Shown: one piece after another, positions 2,728 through 11,365 of the stretch
Layout: the number at the start of each line of letters is the position of its first letter
Numbering within the stretch: position 1 is the first letter of the stretch
Origin: Clostridia bacterium
GTDB lineage: Bacteria > CBDUZB01 > JAGLHV01
Assembly (NCBI GenBank): GCA_030595925.1
Contig: JAUVLC010000068.1
Coordinates: 1-13,364, forward strand
DNA length: 13,364 bases
Direction of reading: 5' to 3'
Program-made: the position numbers and the translations under genes
The notes under the pieces: generated by a model
Databases searched by the model: none
What the model was told of the DNA's origin: nothing
What the model saw: only the letters and a program-made list of their open reading frames with translations

Positions 2728-3177
2728 TTAATCATCGTCTTCCCGGGTGATGTTAAACACTGCCCAGATGGGACGATGGTCGGAGACGGCTAATTTTGCT
2801 TTTGTATCGTCATTATTAAACATTGTTTCGTCCAACATGTCAATACCTGAACTTTGGTTATATTCGGTTAGATACTCGTTTTGAAACCAGAAATTATCGT
2901 ATAAGCTCGTATCTGTAATTGTGGTTTTGTTGGGTGATTCGATTAAAAAAGTCATTGTGGGAATGGTTTTTAAGTTGTCAAATCCTTTGAGTACGAATTC
3001 CTTATAAGAAAACATTAATATAGCAAAATATCCTTTTAAGGGAACTTTTTGGTGCTTTTTTTTGTCTAAGGTATAAGGTAAAAGAGCATCAATAAGAAAC
3101 AAATTTATCTGCGTTCCCTTCCGGAAATTATAACTTGTAAACTTTTTAGCAAAACAGTATAATAAAACACAATTAAA
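2728..3177 (-). pseudogene. C-terminal remnant of an endonuclease/exonuclease/phosphatase-fold protein
   Basis: The frame is open from just after a TAA at 3178-3180 to the stop at 2728-2730 (149 codons). It has no ATG, and the only possible start is a TTG at 3100-3102 without a clear ribosome site. Family-like sequence extends upstream of that TTG (FAKKFTSYNFRKGTQINLFL), so the TTG is unlikely to be a true start. Near the end it reads KLAVSDHRPIWAVFNITRED. The S-D-H-R-P motif is the conserved catalytic C-terminal signature of DNase I-like/EEP hydrolases, where the His and Asp take part in metal-dependent phosphodiester cleavage. Complete members are usually 250-350 residues, so the N-terminal metal-binding Asn and Glu region is missing. 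The RND promoter lies within the 5' part of this remnant. It is most likely a decayed, 5'-deleted gene. Confidence 0.55.
3135..3163 (+). promoter_or_regulatory. Likely promoter of the RND-TolC gene
   Basis: TTGTAA (3135-3140, four of six) is followed by a 17-bp spacer and a perfect TATAAT (3158-3163). The start of transcription would fall near 3170, giving a leader of about 37 bases with AAAGGA at 3191-3196 ahead of the ATG at 3207. No operator-like palindrome is obvious here. Confidence 0.55.
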
Positions 3178-3206: not shown

Positions 3207-6200
3207 ATGTGGGAAAAAATTATAAATTATTGTTCAAGGCGGCATTTGTTAGTAAACTTCATTGCTCTCAGCGTATTGATTGGCGGGGTATTTTTCTGGC
3301 ACCACACACCCAAGGAAGAACTGCCGAATATGGAATTTGATTTCGTAAGAATATCCGCTTACTATCCCGGTGCCTCTCCCAGCGAAGTAGAACATTTTGT
3401 AACAAAACCCATAGAAGATGCGGTTAAAGGAATTGACGGGATTGACGAAATATCCAGTACATCCAATGAAGGAAGTTCCAGTGTTTCCGTCCAGCTTGAA
3501 CAAAATTATGCAGACAGGGATGAGTGTATCATTGAAATCCGTAACGCGGTAATGGATGTAAGACTCCCTGATGAAGTGATAGATGAACCACATATCAGAG
3601 AATTTAAAACTTCCAAAAAAGCAATCATAGACATTGCCTTATTTGATAATACTCAACAGCTCTTAGACTATAACCAAAGGAAAAAACTGCAACGTTATGT
3701 CAGGGTATTGGAAAACCAACTATTAGCACTTCCTCAGGTAAGCGAAATACGGAGAAGCGGATATCTTGATGAGGAAATTCAAATTCATGCTTATCCTAAA
3801 AAACTTATGCACTATAATATTTCTTTCAATAAAGTGCGTCAGGAAATCCAGAACAATAATGTGCGCCAACCGGCAGGCAGTATCGAAGATGAAAAAGAAT
3901 CAAAAGTTACCCTTGCCGCAGAACTGGACAATCCTGAAAAACTCAGCCAACTGATTATTGAAGGCGGATTCGAAGGCCAGGCAGTAAAACTTAACCAGCT
4001 TGCTGATGTCGGCTATGCTTACGAAAAAAATAAAAATATTCTTAAAATAAACGGACACGAAGGCATTATCCTCAATGTTGTAAAAAGCAGCTCTCATGGT
4101 ATTTTAAAAAGTGTTGATGCCGTCAATAAAACCATAAAAAATTTCCAGAACAGCACCCTTAAAAACAGTGAAATAAAAATGGTTCCCTTAGACGATGAAT
4201 CAATAATGGTACGCAACCGGCTTTCCATAGTTCAGATTAACGGGGCCATAGGATTTATATTCATCCTGATTATGCTTTTTGTTTTTCTTGATTTTAAATC
4301 AAGTATATGCGTAGCCGTGGGTATCCCTTTTTCCTTCTGCTTTGCGATGATTTTTACTTCTCTTTTTGGTTTTACCATTAACAACATTACCCTGGCAGCG
4401 GTAATAATCGTTATGGGGATGGTTGTTGACGACGCAATAGTCGTTGCCGAAAATATTATCCGCTTAAGATCTCATGGCAATAATTTTCAGGAAGCCACGG
4501 TAAAGGGAACATCTTATGTTCTTCTGCCTATTATTGCCAGCATCGTTACTACCTGTGTCGCTTTCATCCCGCTGTTTTTCTTTCCGGGAAGGTTTGGCAA
4601 GTTTAACCAGTTTATTCCACCTATAATATTTCTCATGTTGGGTGGAAGCCTTTTCGAAGCCATATTCATTCTTCCTTCACATATGAATATTCAAGTGCCG
4701 CAATGGCTTAGAAGGACAAAAAATACGCCTGCCACAGAGCGAAAGAAAGAACAGCGTCATTGGTTTCATAGAGTTGAAGATGTTTACGGCAAAATTCTGG
4801 AAAAAACATTGAAACTTAAACTGCTTATTTTTCTGGTATTCATCGGACTTATGGTTTCTGCCGGATTTGTTTTTATAACCAAGATGAAATTTGTAATGTT
4901 TCCCAGAGAGGAAACTACACAGGTTTCTCTTGCCGGCGAAGCCCATCCGGGGACAAAACGCTATGAAACCGCCCGGCTGGTACAACCACTGGAAAAAATA
5001 TTTTCTGATTATATCGGGAAGGAAATTATCGGTTTTCGAACACAAATAGCCCGAAGCAGGCGGGGGGGTGAGGTGCAAGAAAATAGAATGCGTATGCGTA
5101 TTGAGCTTGTAGCCAAAGAAAAACGGGATAAATCCTCAAAACAACTTATTAAGGAATGGAAAAAAAAGATTGCCGGTGTTCCCGGTTTTATCAAACTTGA
5201 TTTTCAAAAACACCGCTTTGGCCATTCCAGCGGAAGTCCTATTGAAGTAATTATTCAGGAAAACAACGACGAAGTGCGGGAAAAAGTCGTGGCCCTAATG
5301 GCTAAAAGCATGGAGGAATTTTCCGCTCTGGATAATGTGGAAATTGATCGACCACTAAAACGGCCTGAATATAAAGTAGACCTTAAGCGAAAACTAATCA
5401 AGCGTCTGGGTATTAATCCATCCAACATTAAGAATACCTTCCGAACCCTGCTGGAAGGAAATGTGCTTTATGAAGTGCTTCACGAAGACGAAGAAATTAA
5501 AGTCCGCCTGACTTCAATTGAAAAGGCTAAAGACGATATAAAAAAAGTGCTTAATGTCCCGGTGGAAAATAACAGCAATTATCTTGTTCCTCTTAAAAAC
5601 ATCGTTGACATTAAAAAGATTATTTCACCCAATAGTATTTCACGTAAAAATTATAAACGTTTTACCACTATTGATGCTGATTTAAGTGAAACTACCGATT
5701 TGACCCCTGTTGAAATTGCCGAATATTTTGAAGAAAATATCATTCCGCAAATAATTTCCCAACATCCGACTGCAGGAATAATTTTTGAAGGTGAGGTTAA
5801 AGAAACACGGGAATCGCAAAACTACTTTAAAATAGCTATTTTTATGGTGCTTTTTCTTATTTATGTCGTTCTTTCTTTATTATTTGACTCACTGGTTAAA
5901 CCCCTGCTGATTATGGTCACCATTCCTTTTGGGTTAGTGGGTATAATTTTCGCTTTCTGGGGACACGGAATTACTCTTGTCGGCTACTTTGCCGCCATAG
6001 GGGCACTGGGCCTTGCCGGGGTTGTGGTAAATGATTCTATTATTATGCTGGTTAAACTGGACAAGGAATATGACCGGGGGAAACACAGAGAACTATCCAA
6101 CAAACAAATTGCCAATATTGCCAAAACCAGACTGCGAGCGGTTATTCTTACTACCTTAACTACTGTAGCCGGATTGTTTCCCACCGCATACGGTATAGCA

Positions 6201-7763
6201 GGATACGATGCGATGTTGGCGGATATGATGCTGGCAATGTCCTGGGGGCTTTTATTCAGCACTTTTATTACCCTGTTATTAATCCCCAGTCTGTATGGTT
6301 TCATAAGGGATGTCAAACATAAGTTTCTACCCACACAAAAAGTCTTGAAATCCGGGAAATTATTTACCTTTCTGTTTGTAATTCTTTTTTGTGGTACTGT
6401 TTTAGTAGAGGCTAAAGAAGTAGAGCCACCCCAAGTATTGCCTTTGCCTGAATTTGTTACCAAAGCCTGCACCAACGATATTACCTTTCAGGAAATTCTC
6501 GTTAACCAACTGGCCGTTACCTATACAAGTTTTTTAACCCTCCCGCTGAAGGACTGGATATTCTCCCTAAAAAGTCAGCATGATACAGTCATTGGCGGAG
6601 ATTCCACTACCAGCCCGACCAACAGTGTCTCTCTGGACAAATTATTCCCAGCGAGCGGTACAAATCTTTCTATTGACTATGATTTGTCCGGAAACCCTTC
6701 ATCATCAGAAAACAGTTCCTCTTTTTCCGTCTTAATTTCGCAGCCTCTGGCAGAAAATGCTTTTGGAAAAACTAACAGGTATCTTAAAAAAATAACCGGT
6801 ATTGAAGAGACTGTCGCCAATCATCAAATTGTCGAAGCGTATGAAGATTATCTGGCGGTCTTAATTACACTATATTATAACTGGTATTTTGCTTATGAAA
6901 ACTTAAAAACCGCTGAGGCTTCTTACCGGGAAAGTCTCAAACAACTGGATAATATGCTTAAGCGTAAGAAAAGTAATATTGCCCTTGCTGTTGATGTAAA
7001 TAAAATACGCCTGCAGGTGCTGGCTAAAAAAGAGCGTGTTATTTCTCTTGCGGACAACTTTGATCAAACACACAATCTGATTAAACAAGCTATCGGAGAA
7101 AAGGATCAATCAAAATTTTTGCCTGAAGAAACCCCTTCCTTTTACAAAAGTTTAACCCGGTCATTCGATGAAGAATACGCATTATTTAAAGAAAAAAGCC
7201 GTACATCCAAAATATTGGGATTATTGGAGAAAAAATCAGACCTGGAATTGAGCAAAGATAAAAACGCTTTACTTCCCTCTTTAAATCTTAGTTTTGGTTA
7301 TTCCCGGGATGGCTCCGGATACAGGATAACAGATGAAAGCAGCTTTGCCTATACTATGATTTCACTTGAATTTCCCTACAAAGCCACACAGGAAAAAGCG
7401 GCATACGAAATATCCAAACTCAATCGTAGAAAAACAGTATTATCTTCCAAAAATAAGCATATTCATCTTTATACTGATTTGCTTAACCTCTACGAAGAGA
7501 TAGAAAAAACTAAAAATCTTATAAATAATGCCCGGGAGCGTACTAAAATAGCTCAATCCATTTTAAAAGATGAACAAAGAAACTACACCCTGGGACAAGC
7601 AACCCTTAATGACTTGATTGCAGCAATCAACAAACTGGAAGATAACAGGTTTAATAAAATTGCTTATTCGGTACAATTGAAACTCCTAATGACTGAATGG
7701 TGCCGTTTAACTGACCGGTTAGTTACCCCAAAAGAAATTACGAAAAATAAGAAACCGCATTAG
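3207..7763 (+). CDS. RND efflux permease fused in frame to a TolC-like outer-membrane factor (1518 aa)
   Basis: Residues 1-1040 form a full HAE1-like RND permease. They include a first membrane helix (about 13-31), a porter domain with PNMEFDFVRISAYYPGASPSEVE, and TM2-6 from about 345 with the proton-relay Asp pair D408-D409 in GMVVDDAIVVAEN. A second porter half and TM8-12 follow (874-1035), with GVVVNDSIIMLVK in TM10 and Asn-Asp where AcrB has its Lys region. Residues 1051-1069 look like a signal peptide, KLFTFLFVILFCGTVLVEA. Residues 1070-1518 form a TolC-like factor with two long helical halves, a Tyr/Trp-rich helix (1221-1230) and beta segments such as LPSLNLSFGYSRDGSG. The combined length equals a normal RND (~1040) plus a normal TolC protein (~450). 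Normally pump, periplasmic adaptor and outer-membrane factor are separate; no adaptor gene is visible here. Substrate unknown, most likely drugs, detergents or metabolites. A lost stop codon or a sequencing error at the junction is the main alternative. Confidence 0.93.
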   Translation: MWEKIINYCSRRHLLVNFIALSVLIGGVFFWHHTPKEELPNMEFDFVRISAYYPGASPSEVEHFVTKPIEDAVKGIDGIDEISSTSNEGSSSVSVQLEQNYADRDECIIEIRNAVMDVRLPDEVIDEPHIREFKTSKKAIIDIALFDNTQQLLDYNQRKKLQRYVRVLENQLLALPQVSEIRRSGYLDEEIQIHAYPKKLMHYNISFNKVRQEIQNNNVRQPAGSIEDEKESKVTLAAELDNPEKLSQLIIEGGFEGQAVKLNQLADVGYAYEKNKNILKINGHEGIILNVVKSSSHGILKSVDAVNKTIKNFQNSTLKNSEIKMVPLDDESIMVRNRLSIVQINGAIGFIFILIMLFVFLDFKSSICVAVGIPFSFCFAMIFTSLFGFTINNITLAAVIIVMGMVVDDAIVVAENIIRLRSHGNNFQEATVKGTSYVLLPIIASIVTTCVAFIPLFFFPGRFGKFNQFIPPIIFLMLGGSLFEAIFILPSHMNIQVPQWLRRTKNTPATERKKEQRHWFHRVEDVYGKILEKTLKLKLLIFLVFIGLMVSAGFVFITKMKFVMFPREETTQVSLAGEAHPGTKRYETARLVQPLEKIFSDYIGKEIIGFRTQIARSRRGGEVQENRMRMRIELVAKEKRDKSSKQLIKEWKKKIAGVPGFIKLDFQKHRFGHSSGSPIEVIIQENNDEVREKVVALMAKSMEEFSALDNVEIDRPLKRPEYKVDLKRKLIKRLGINPSNIKNTFRTLLEGNVLYEVLHEDEEIKVRLTSIEKAKDDIKKVLNVPVENNSNYLVPLKNIVDIKKIISPNSISRKNYKRFTTIDADLSETTDLTPVEIAEYFEENIIPQIISQHPTAGIIFEGEVKETRESQNYFKIAIFMVLFLIYVVLSLLFDSLVKPLLIMVTIPFGLVGIIFAFWGHGITLVGYFAAIGALGLAGVVVNDSIIMLVKLDKEYDRGKHRELSNKQIANIAKTRLRAVILTTLTTVAGLFPTAYGIAGYDAMLADMMLAMSWGLLFSTFITLLLIPSLYGFIRDVKHKFLPTQKVLKSGKLFTFLFVILFCGTVLVEAKEVEPPQVLPLPEFVTKACTNDITFQEILVNQLAVTYTSFLTLPLKDWIFSLKSQHDTVIGGDSTTSPTNSVSLDKLFPASGTNLSIDYDLSGNPSSSENSSSFSVLISQPLAENAFGKTNRYLKKITGIEETVANHQIVEAYEDYLAVLITLYYNWYFAYENLKTAEASYRESLKQLDNMLKRKKSNIALAVDVNKIRLQVLAKKERVISLADNFDQTHNLIKQAIGEKDQSKFLPEETPSFYKSLTRSFDEEYALFKEKSRTSKILGLLEKKSDLELSKDKNALLPSLNLSFGYSRDGSGYRITDESSFAYTMISLEFPYKATQEKAAYEISKLNRRKTVLSSKNKHIHLYTDLLNLYEEIEKTKNLINNARERTKIAQSILKDEQRNYTLGQATLNDLIAAINKLEDNRFNKIAYSVQLKLLMTEWCRLTDRLVTPKEITKNKKPH
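6357..6413 (+). other. Internal signal-peptide-like segment at the RND/TolC junction
   Basis: Codons 1051-1069 encode a lysine, a hydrophobic core and V-E-A before KEVEPP, which fits the small-residue -3/-1 rule of signal peptidase I. The RND part should end in the cytoplasm after its twelfth helix. This segment would therefore act as a thirteenth helix delivering the TolC part to the periplasm, and cleavage would release it. An in-frame TTG at 6345 (codon 1047) would give a classic stand-alone TolC precursor (M-KSGKLFTFLF), but no Shine-Dalgarno sequence precedes it. Confidence 0.6.
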
Positions 7764-7896: not shown

Positions 7897-8520
7897 ATGA
7901 GAATAAACAAACCTTTAGATAAAATTTTAAATAGCGAGGTAAAGGTTAAAATCTTGCGATTCCTTTGTAGAACAGAGGCAGAATGGAACGGCCGTCAAAT
8001 TGCCAAAGAAATTAAAATAAGTCCTGCTACCTGTCACAAAGCCTTACGTGAATTGAATAATGAACAAGTGTTATTATTGAAAAATGTAGGGAAGAGCTAC
8101 CTTTATCGCTTGAATAAAGAAAATTTTCTTATATCAGCTTTGCTTAAACCTTTATATGAAAAAGAAAACCAACTCCATCGTGAAATATATAAAGCTATAA
8201 TAGAAAACATAAGTCCCCTATCAAAAAAAAACATAGTTTCTATAGCAGTTTTTGGTAGTATCCAAGCAAAAAAAGAACGGCCTACAAGTGACATAGATCT
8301 TCTGATATTGGTAAGTGATAAAAAATATAAAGTACAAATAGAAAAAAATTTTGAAAAAGTGAATAGAAATGTTTTCGACAAATTTGGCAATGTAATTTCT
8401 CCTTATATTCAAACTGTTGATGAATTTAAAATAAAACATAAAAACGGACTTCCTTTAATAAAGAAGCTTTTGCGGTCACATAATTTGCTTTTTGGTAAAG
8501 CTTTAGAAGGAATAATTTAA
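7897..8520 (+). CDS. Winged-helix / minimal nucleotidyltransferase (MNT) protein, putative antitoxin
   Basis: Residues about 12-72 look like a winged helix-turn-helix: VKVKILRFLCR, the recognition region GRQIAKEIKISPATCHKALR, and a wing ending KSYLYRLN. Residues about 110-200 form a polymerase-beta-like minimal nucleotidyltransferase with GS at 120-121 and D132-I-D134, matching the GS-x10-DxD active-site motif that binds metal and nucleotide. In known MNT-HEPN pairs the MNT protein neutralises the HEPN ribonuclease by adding AMP to it. Here a DNA-binding domain is fused, so the protein probably also represses its own promoter through the repeats at 7851-7881. The ATG at 7897 is preceded by AAAAGG at 7882-7887. 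Its stop abuts the HEPN start codon (TAAATG). A pure regulator without antitoxin role is possible. Confidence 0.85.
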   Translation: MRINKPLDKILNSEVKVKILRFLCRTEAEWNGRQIAKEIKISPATCHKALRELNNEQVLLLKNVGKSYLYRLNKENFLISALLKPLYEKENQLHREIYKAIIENISPLSKKNIVSIAVFGSIQAKKERPTSDIDLLILVSDKKYKVQIEKNFEKVNRNVFDKFGNVISPYIQTVDEFKIKHKNGLPLIKKLLRSHNLLFGKALEGII

Positions 8521-8946
8521 ATGTCTGCTAAAAAAATAAAAACAAAACCTATAGAAAAAACTCAATATAGAGTTTATTTCAGGAAAGCTACCCAATTTTA
8601 TAAAGTAATGTTTCAGGCTAAAGAAATACAAAACTGGGATGCTGTAGGTCTAAATGCTGTTCATTGTGCTATTTCTGCCTGTGATGCAATGCTTGTTCTT
8701 TATTCGGGTATTCGTTGTAAAAGTGAAAATCATCTGGATGTAGTTACTTTACTGATAAACTCAGTAGATTTAGATGAAACTAAATCCAAAAGCAACACTT
8801 TAAAAAAAATTTTATTTAAAAAAAATATCATTGAATATGAAGACAGAAATTTTACCCAAAAAGAAGCCTTAGATATACTTAAACTCACAGAAAGATTCTA
8901 TATGTGGGTTAGTTCAAAAATAACGAACGAGTTTCATTATGAATAA
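8521..8946 (+). CDS. HEPN-domain protein, putative RNase toxin partner of the MNT
   Basis: A 141-residue all-helical protein. Residues 20-60 read YFRKATQFYK...NWDAVGLNAVHCAISACDAMLV, the typical first long helices of HEPN proteins coupled to nucleotidyltransferases. R65-CKSEN-H71 fits the R-x4-6-H motif of active HEPN ribonucleases, although it lies earlier than the C-terminal motif in HepT-type toxins. The C-terminal pattern EYEDRNFTQKEALDILKLTE also recurs in HEPN families. Translation starts directly after the MNT stop, with AGAAGGA at 8504-8510 as ribosome site. HEPN proteins paired with MNT usually cleave RNA and are held inactive by AMPylation. A purely substrate-binding HEPN is the alternative. 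Confidence 0.78.
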   Translation: MSAKKIKTKPIEKTQYRVYFRKATQFYKVMFQAKEIQNWDAVGLNAVHCAISACDAMLVLYSGIRCKSENHLDVVTLLINSVDLDETKSKSNTLKKILFKKNIIEYEDRNFTQKEALDILKLTERFYMWVSSKITNEFHYE

Positions 8947-11365
8947 AATAAACAATTTTATCGTCTTTTTAGCTTCTCCAAATGATCTTAAAGAGGAAAG
9001 ACTTCTGGCAAAAAAAGTTGAAGAGGACTTAAACAAGAGTATTTCCAAAGGATTAAACTGGCAGATTAATTTACTTGTTTGGGAGGAGTTATCTCCTGGG
9101 GTTGGTAGACCTCAAGAAACAATTAATAAAGATATAAAAAGGTGCGATCTCTTTGTTGGTTTGCTTTGGCAGCGATGGGGAACACTCCCTGGAAATGAAT
9201 ATTCTTCCGGATTTGAAGAAGAATTTGCACTTGCTCAAGAATGTCGTAAAAACCCTGATTTTCCATGTAAAGACATATGTTTATTTTTTAAAGAAATAAC
9301 TGCCCACCAATCTAGTGACCCAGGTCCACAACTAAGAAAAGTTATCGATTTCAAGAAAGAAATAGAGACAAAAAAGGAACTTCGTTATAAAGAGTTTAAA
9401 ACTAAAAAAGACTGGGAAGAATCGTTTAGAACCCTCTTGCTTGAAAAAATAATAGAAGTGAGTAAGTCATATAATACATTCGAAAAAGAGTCTAAGACAA
9501 AAAGTTTACCATCAAATACAATTCTGCCCATTGACCCCACCAACAAAATAACTACCCCGGCTATGAAAGATATTCAAGAAATTATTCAACAATTAGGAAA
9601 AAGTGCTACGCTTCCAAAAAAATTTGGAACACTAAATTCATTTCAACGGAATAGATTATATTTATTTTCTTCAGCATTATTATATAATTATGACATTTAT
9701 GAAACAATGGGGACTCATGAAATTAATTCCTTGTTTAAATATAGGGAAAAGGTTAAACCTTTTTATTTTGAGCAAAAATTAATTTTTAGAACTATAATAA
9801 AGGATTCATACGATATAAAACCCGGATGGTTTTGGTCTCATAAAATGACTGAACAAGGACTAACCAAAATATTAATACTTTTTTACAAATCGGTAATCTC
9901 AGACGAAGAATTAAAAATACAATGTGTTAAAATATTAAATAAAATGTGGTCAAAAAGCTTAGAAAAGGAAATGTGCCTTTCGCTAAAGGATAACAGTGCA
10001 AATGTAATAAAAGAAATTTTAAATGTTTTGCAAATAAAGGGGGACAAAGAATCTCTAAAATATATAGGCACTTATCAAGTAAGCAGTGATTCTTCTGTAA
10101 AAAAAGAAGCATTAAGAGCAAAATTTTCCATTTTAGTACGGTGTGACCATTGTGAAGCAATTAATTTTTTAATGGGCATGAAAGAAGACACAGATATTGA
10201 ATATAGCGATATACAAAAATTGACTCAGAATAGTAATGAAAGAGAATTGCGTTCGTTATTGACAAATTCTAATGATAAAGTACAGCTAGTAGCTTATAAA
10301 GAATTAATACCTCGTAATAAATTAAGCAAAAAGAAATTACAAGGTTTGTTAGAAAATGAATCTTTAGAATTGAAATATTATGCTTATAACAAATTAATTG
10401 ACCAGGGAGAGAACTTTGACCCTAAGGAGATTAGCAACAAATTCGCTTTTCTATCAGAAAAATTAGAAGAAGAAGTTTTATTAAAACTTTTCAAAAAATA
10501 TTCAAAATCTGAATTACTTAAGCATATAGATTGGATATCATTAAATAGCCCTATTGCTTACAAAGCATTAGGAATCAATTATTTTGATTCGTTCCAAAAC
10601 ATATTAAGGAAAGACATAGATAATAACTTTGAAAGAATAAAACTTGCCTATATTGAGCTATTTGCAAAAGAAATAACGGAGAAAACAATATTAGGGTTAA
10701 AAATAAAAAATTTACCTTATGATGCAAAAAAAATAGAACAGCATTGTAAATTACTAGCAGAAAAAGAAATGGAAAAAAAGTTTAATAAATTTGATAATTC
10801 TATAAAAAATGACTTCACACATGCAGCTCTTAGCGTTTTATTAATTGAAGGACATAAAGATGATGTAATTTATGCAAGAAAATACTTAAGCTCTGATAAT
10901 AGTGAAATAAAGGAAATAGCGGTAGAAATATTAAGACATTTTGGTAATGACAAAGATATAGTTAACTTATTTGATATAGCTACAAATAGTTCTGGAAGTT
11001 TGAAAGAAAAGGCTGCAAAAGCAGCATTATTCTTAGATAAAAATATGCACTTTAAGATTAGACACCTGTTTTTAACGAGTAACGATCCTAAATTAGTTAA
11101 ATATTCTCTTAGTAAAGACAACAGTTATTTAAGTCTTGTCGAAAAAAATCTTCTTAGTAATAATAGTGAAATTAGAGAAATATGTATTTCTTATTTAATT
11201 AAAAATTTAGAGGAAGAAAAACTATTATCCTTATTGGATAGACATTTAAATGAAAAAACTTATTATTACAACGTTGTGTGTTGGTTAGATAAATGTTTAT
11301 ATGCTCCCCCAAAATTGAAAGAAGTTTTTTTTAAGGAAATAACTGGTAAAATAGATAATGAGTAA
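8939..11365 (+). CDS. DUF4062 (TIR-like) domain protein with long HEAT-like helical tail (808 aa)
   Basis: Residues 6-115 match the DUF4062 style: FIVFLASPNDLKEER (7-21), WEE (48-50), GRPQETIN (56-63), CDLFVGLLWQRWGT (69-82) and SSGFEEEFALAQE (89-101). DUF4062 is related to TIR domains, and the Glu cluster 93-95 sits where TIR NADases carry their catalytic Glu. A linker at about 175-210 follows. Residues about 225-800 are helical, with HEAT-like pairs such as SLKYIGTYQVSSDSSVKKEA, LRSLLTNSNDKVQLVAYKEL and YLSSDNSEIKEIAVEILRHF. No P-loop NTPase is seen, unlike the STAND/NACHT proteins that often carry DUF4062. Its ATG overlaps the HEPN stop by 8 bp (ATGAATAA), which points to translational coupling and co-regulation. 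A defence sensor-effector role is inferred. Confidence 0.85.
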   Translation: MNKINNFIVFLASPNDLKEERLLAKKVEEDLNKSISKGLNWQINLLVWEELSPGVGRPQETINKDIKRCDLFVGLLWQRWGTLPGNEYSSGFEEEFALAQECRKNPDFPCKDICLFFKEITAHQSSDPGPQLRKVIDFKKEIETKKELRYKEFKTKKDWEESFRTLLLEKIIEVSKSYNTFEKESKTKSLPSNTILPIDPTNKITTPAMKDIQEIIQQLGKSATLPKKFGTLNSFQRNRLYLFSSALLYNYDIYETMGTHEINSLFKYREKVKPFYFEQKLIFRTIIKDSYDIKPGWFWSHKMTEQGLTKILILFYKSVISDEELKIQCVKILNKMWSKSLEKEMCLSLKDNSANVIKEILNVLQIKGDKESLKYIGTYQVSSDSSVKKEALRAKFSILVRCDHCEAINFLMGMKEDTDIEYSDIQKLTQNSNERELRSLLTNSNDKVQLVAYKELIPRNKLSKKKLQGLLENESLELKYYAYNKLIDQGENFDPKEISNKFAFLSEKLEEEVLLKLFKKYSKSELLKHIDWISLNSPIAYKALGINYFDSFQNILRKDIDNNFERIKLAYIELFAKEITEKTILGLKIKNLPYDAKKIEQHCKLLAEKEMEKKFNKFDNSIKNDFTHAALSVLLIEGHKDDVIYARKYLSSDNSEIKEIAVEILRHFGNDKDIVNLFDIATNSSGSLKEKAAKAALFLDKNMHFKIRHLFLTSNDPKLVKYSLSKDNSYLSLVEKNLLSNNSEIREICISYLIKNLEEEKLLSLLDRHLNEKTYYYNVVCWLDKCLYAPPKLKEVFFKEITGKIDNE

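Follow-up and report, generated by a model that had tools for sequence, protein, structure and literature searches.

The window analysed here, a stretch of 13,364 nucleotides from a Clostridia bacterium (contig JAUVLC010000068.1), encodes an RND pump and a TolC-like outer-membrane factor (OMF) in one reading frame, and this fused frame is genuine and genus-wide. The fusion most likely works as a polyprotein (a probability of about 75%), in which an internal signal would be cut by signal peptidase I to give two proteins. A lasting covalent link between pump and channel, as proposed in a first-pass annotation of this DNA, is unlikely.

The frame runs on the forward strand from an ATG at 3207 to 7763 (stop included), a total of 1518 codons with no internal stop, and is also found at the congeneric loci L039 and L038. 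A promoter-like TTGTAA-17-TATAAT lies upstream (3135-3163, forward strand); this is a consensus match only, identical in L039 and not in L038. The RND permease part (residues 1-1034, positions 3207-6308, forward strand) was delimited by Pfam, an AlphaFold2 (AF2) model, Foldseek and alignments. It gives a full-length match to ACR_tran (PF00873; residues 6-1033, profile positions 2-1020 of 1021, 535 bits against a cut-off of 28), and the AF2 model (pLDDT 84.5), Foldseek and hydropathy agree on an AcrB fold with 12 TM helices and two periplasmic loops, matching AcrD, CmeB and AcrB with a TM-score of up to 0.87. In the alignments, one of them with CmeB, the Asp pair of TM4 is present (D408/D409, in VVDD), whereas N942-D943 occupy the positions of AcrB K940-N941, so that the lysine K940 is replaced by asparagine. 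The nearest PDB sequence neighbours are CmeB, ZneA, MtrD and MdtB, and the pump scores below every curated NCBIfam subfamily cut-off. It is not of the HAE1 (AcrB-like) type, given the asparagine at K940 and the scores of 297 of 940 bits for TIGR00915 and 492 of 1250 for NF033617. Membership of the HME (CusA/CzcA) group was also rejected, with 297 of 701 bits for TIGR00914 and a position outside the HME clade in the tree.

The C-terminal part is a complete TolC-like channel (residues about 1080-1502), and the predicted mature OMF comprises residues 1070-1518 (positions 6414-7760, forward strand). It contains two stretches of OEP (PF02321), the best at 1321-1502 with 73 bits, and has PDB profile matches to TolC; its AF2 model shows helices and strands in the canonical TolC order and a TolC/OprM-type match by Foldseek (TM-score about 0.6-0.73, depending on the target). 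Both half-models align with AcrB-type and TolC/OprM-type structures, respectively, over essentially their entire length. Hence, the initial observation that a full-length pump and a full-length channel share one frame was borne out by the single ORF, Pfam and AF2/Foldseek, and translation as one chain would indeed fix a 1:1 synthesis of the two components, as had been suggested.

We searched for homologues with the same domain order and found the fusion in both of the other genus genomes examined, making it common to three congeneric MAGs. The joined frame is full length in G002 (JAGLYT010000021; 1531 aa, 89% identity), while in G001 (JAGLHV010000128; 87% identity) it covers 1140 aa, past the junction and up to the contig end, with the rest of the channel part at the start of another contig. 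The first-pass annotation would have given way if all close relatives had two separate genes; instead, the congeners are fused, and two genes are found only in more distant relatives. The window is itself a MAG contig, which could favour an assembly or sequencing artefact, or a pseudogene in decay, but an assembly error is very unlikely because both congeners, as separate MAGs, share the fusion. At the junction, the congeners differ in length by just one whole codon, and substitutions between the window and L039 are dominated by third positions both upstream and downstream of it (81, 43 and 256 at the three codon positions in the RND part, 35, 19 and 104 in the OMF part), all of which leaves artefact or decay with almost no probability.

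In relatives with 51-56% identity (Omnitrophota, Elusimicrobiota, further MAGs), two neighbouring genes encode the pump and the channel, as they do in two Bdellovibrionota (42-43%) and in G035 (46%). The two-gene pairs of Omnitrophota, Elusimicrobiota and some Bdellovibrionota resemble the fusion in their homologous pump (42-56%) and channel (19-45%), in gene order and in having no adjacent adaptor gene, but are separate genes with a stop and start of their own, which overlap or leave a gap of at most about 20 nt. Mostly, the overlap is of a few bases, and the two genes are nearly always in different frames. In six genomes of Bacteriovoracaceae/Halobacteriovoraceae, the pump is present with no channel gene directly adjoining. 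The tree unites the three fused pumps in a clade (100) whose sister group is the two-gene pumps of Omnitrophota and Elusimicrobiota (99). This sister position indicates, at the sequence level, that the fusion is a derived state requiring one event, in the window's genus, and that the ancestor had two adjacent, mostly overlapping genes. No RND-OMF fusion of the window's type was found outside the genus among the matches listed at E ≤ 1e-110 in the 386 genomes searched. Other long RND frames in the sampled genomes (L060-L068) showed no fused OMF when their ORFs were inspected, and are mostly over-extended frames in GC-rich DNA; L059 was the one RND-OMF fusion among them.

The junction comprises a basic loop of cytoplasmic type after TM12, ending RDVKHKFLPTQKVLKSGK (positions 6309-6359, forward strand; AF2 pLDDT partly below 50), and an internal signal-peptide-like segment, KSGKLFTFLFVILFCGTVLVEA (residues 1048-1069, positions 6348-6413, forward strand). 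The net charge of the 23 residues leading up to the hydrophobic stretch is +5 in the window and +3 to +5 across the three species, and the mean hydropathy over LFTFLFVILFCGTVLV is 2.76. All three species have the basic flank, 15-16 uncharged hydrophobic residues and then VEA or LEA followed by KE; the sequence of the segment diverges (KSGKLFTFLFVILFCGTVLVEA, ESGKVLTFLFVILCGTVLVEA and VSRNLFIFLLLILCSSVFLEA), while the hydrophobic stretch and the small-residue cut site persist. The region evolves fast, with amino-acid changes exceeding silent changes. A simple drift simulation of the hydrophobic stretch gave p values of 0.07-0.10 for divergent pairs, which is suggestive, rather than proof, of hydrophobicity being kept against drift. 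The segment lines up with the leader sequences at the N-termini of separately encoded OMFs in relatives, and a signal peptidase I site is predicted after A1069; the export signal directly ahead of the mature channel is thus assigned by composition and alignment. A lipobox was considered and does not fit, as the residue ahead of C1062 is F in the window and L in the congeners.

In the polyprotein reading, translation yields one chain of 1518 residues, as seen at the level of the sequence. The RND part would insert through its 12 TM helices and leave its C-terminus in the cytoplasm, as expected from family topology and hydropathy. Since the pump C-terminus is cytoplasmic by family topology, an additional membrane-crossing segment is required in any case. 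The channel's original N-terminal signal peptide, which has become internal, would serve as this thirteenth, N-in/C-out segment. It would thread the channel part via Sec into the periplasm, and signal peptidase I would cleave after A1069, as the motif suggests. The freed channel would then trimerise in the outer membrane while the pump remains in the inner membrane, so that the working machine would consist of separate proteins in equal amounts. A supporting parallel comes from independent RND-OMF fusions of HME pumps, 9/9 of which have an internal signal ending in x-A before Q. The Bradyrhizobium FbcH cytochrome b/c1 polyprotein likewise joins a membrane protein to an exported protein, with an internal signal sequence cut by signal peptidase, although the proteins are unrelated to those of the window's fusion and FbcH has no outer-membrane component.

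Alternatively, the hydrophobic stretch could remain uncleaved as a stable TM13, linking each channel subunit permanently to a pump subunit. The single frame in three species is consistent with such a tether, and so is the absence of an adaptor gene nearby, which the tether might replace. However, only about 10 residues (at most about 40 Å when stretched) separate the predicted cut from the first channel helix, at about residue 1080 in the AF2 model. The periplasmic part of the AcrB pump is about 70 Å tall. Helix H1 of the channel is part of the equatorial domain, around the middle of an alpha-barrel of about 100 Å (PMC8277102), and many homologues, lipidated ones, have their N-terminus held at the outer membrane (PMC13082787). 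Both trimers could hardly sit in their own membranes if the chain stayed uncut, because a link of this length is too short to lead from the inner membrane past the pump domain to the equatorial domain. In addition, the cut site keeps its small residues across the species, and in the alignment the stretch ahead of the channel is no longer in the fused than in the separate channels. With a signal-like segment retained at the junction and so short a link to helix 1, the permanent connection of the two trimers put forward in the first-pass annotation is unsupported, and we regard it as improbable.

The channel might also be made separately, by internal initiation near codon 1047, with the long product being minor. 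The window has an in-frame TTG AAA TCC GGG AAA directly ahead of the signal, and an argininosuccinate lyase-OMF frame of the same genus has an ATG at the equivalent place in 3/3 species. However, the TTG (codon 1047, positions 6345-6347, forward strand) is the only start-like codon just ahead of the segment and is TTA in both congeners, and the comparison of the three congeners revealed no start codon common to them there. This lack of conservation argues against a separate translation start of the channel, for which we see very little likelihood.

Pump-channel fusion is not without precedent: many Bacteroidota have annotated RND-OMF fusions of the CusA type. The same fusion in CusA/CzcA-type (HME) pumps was found in one sampled Bacteroidota genome (L059, with the fusion confirmed by Pfam) and in at least 51 plasmid records, counted where one place covers at least 80% of the L059 query. 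In the nine HME fusions inspected, the hydrophobic stretch ends with GKA, LNA, VQA, TKA, SWA, AQA, TQA, ARA or ANA before Q. The Bacteroidota fusions (e.g., Flavobacterium sp. N2155 WP_264563277 and Haliscomenobacter WP_013768944; about 1450-1470 aa) share with the window's fusion the domain order and an internal signal-like segment ahead of the OMF, but differ in their RND subfamily, in a separate fusion event and in being followed by an adaptor gene, as seen in 8/8 annotated plasmid loci inspected. As the HME fusions and the window's fusion fall into different clades of the tree, sequence comparison indicates that the RND-OMF architecture arose independently at least twice. A literature search among open-licence papers found no paper on RND-OMF fusions. 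The architecture itself is already known, and what is new here is its occurrence in a non-HME pump clade without an adjacent adaptor gene.

AcrAB-TolC and CmeABC share the pump and channel folds with the window's fusion, but consist of separate polypeptides with a dedicated periplasmic adaptor. No adaptor (MFP) gene was found in the window or beside the two-gene pairs of the relatives. In the window's own genome, which is 97% complete, a search with the RND adaptor family found only a short partial protein beside another pump and one match in a biotin-carrier-like gene, and other adaptor families gave nothing above cut-off. In G001, a full adaptor gene precedes that genome's own CusA-like pump. 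The MAGs compared are incomplete. The fused pump may dispense with a classical adaptor and dock directly with its channel, or it may use an adaptor that has diverged or is encoded elsewhere. Two further loci were noted in the window's genome: a second pump at L091:3278-7929 (G000:C42), with an OMF gene (481 aa) and an RND gene (1069 aa) that overlap by four bases and have no adjoining adaptor gene, and at L092:1574-6724 (G000:C8) an OMF, a short adaptor-like protein of 222 aa and an RND gene in a row, the adaptor-like protein matching the RND adaptor profile in its C-terminal half only.

The lyase-OMF frame joins argininosuccinate lyase and a TolC-like channel in 895 codons (L090:3063-5750, corresponding to G000:C152:6062-8749; also L097 and L098). 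It is present in all three congeners at 84-91%, with the G001 copy stopping at a contig edge, and has a signal-like segment at the junction in addition to the ATG, whose conservation makes internal initiation possible there. Bacterial polyproteins sorted to two different membranes by signal peptidase are rare, and the same internal-signal anatomy in two RND lineages and an enzyme-OMF frame suggests that annotated "pump-channel fusion proteins" are two-for-one precursors rather than covalent machines, which changes how such fusions should be annotated and modelled. This pump clade apparently lacks an adaptor gene, which also raises the question of whether an RND pump can reach an OMF without such a partner. 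Tentatively, and at a fairly low probability, we could picture a clade of bipartite, adaptor-free pumps that work with their own OMF, of which one genus supplies both parts as a polyprotein that sorts itself through cleavage at the internal signal peptide; internal signals would then be a general route for the fusion of OMF genes to an upstream gene, even argininosuccinate lyase.

Elsewhere in the window, a 756-aa protein with N-terminal hydrophobic segments and a long TPR array of near-identical units is encoded on the reverse strand at 391-2661, followed, on the same strand at 2728-3102, by an apparent gene remnant, a 124-aa frame ending SDHRPIWAVFNI, which by eye resembles an endonuclease/exonuclease/phosphatase C-terminus. 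Downstream of the fused gene, positions 7897-8946 encode an HTH-nucleotidyltransferase (MNT) and HEPN pair, likely of the toxin-antitoxin type; L039 has a shorter, altered version of the HEPN frame. Overlapping the HEPN gene, positions 8939-11365 encode a DUF4062 protein that contains HEAT-like repeats and matches the PADLOC candidate family PDC-S60 (5e-28); this gene is missing at the equivalent place in L039, where the P-type ATPase comes immediately next.
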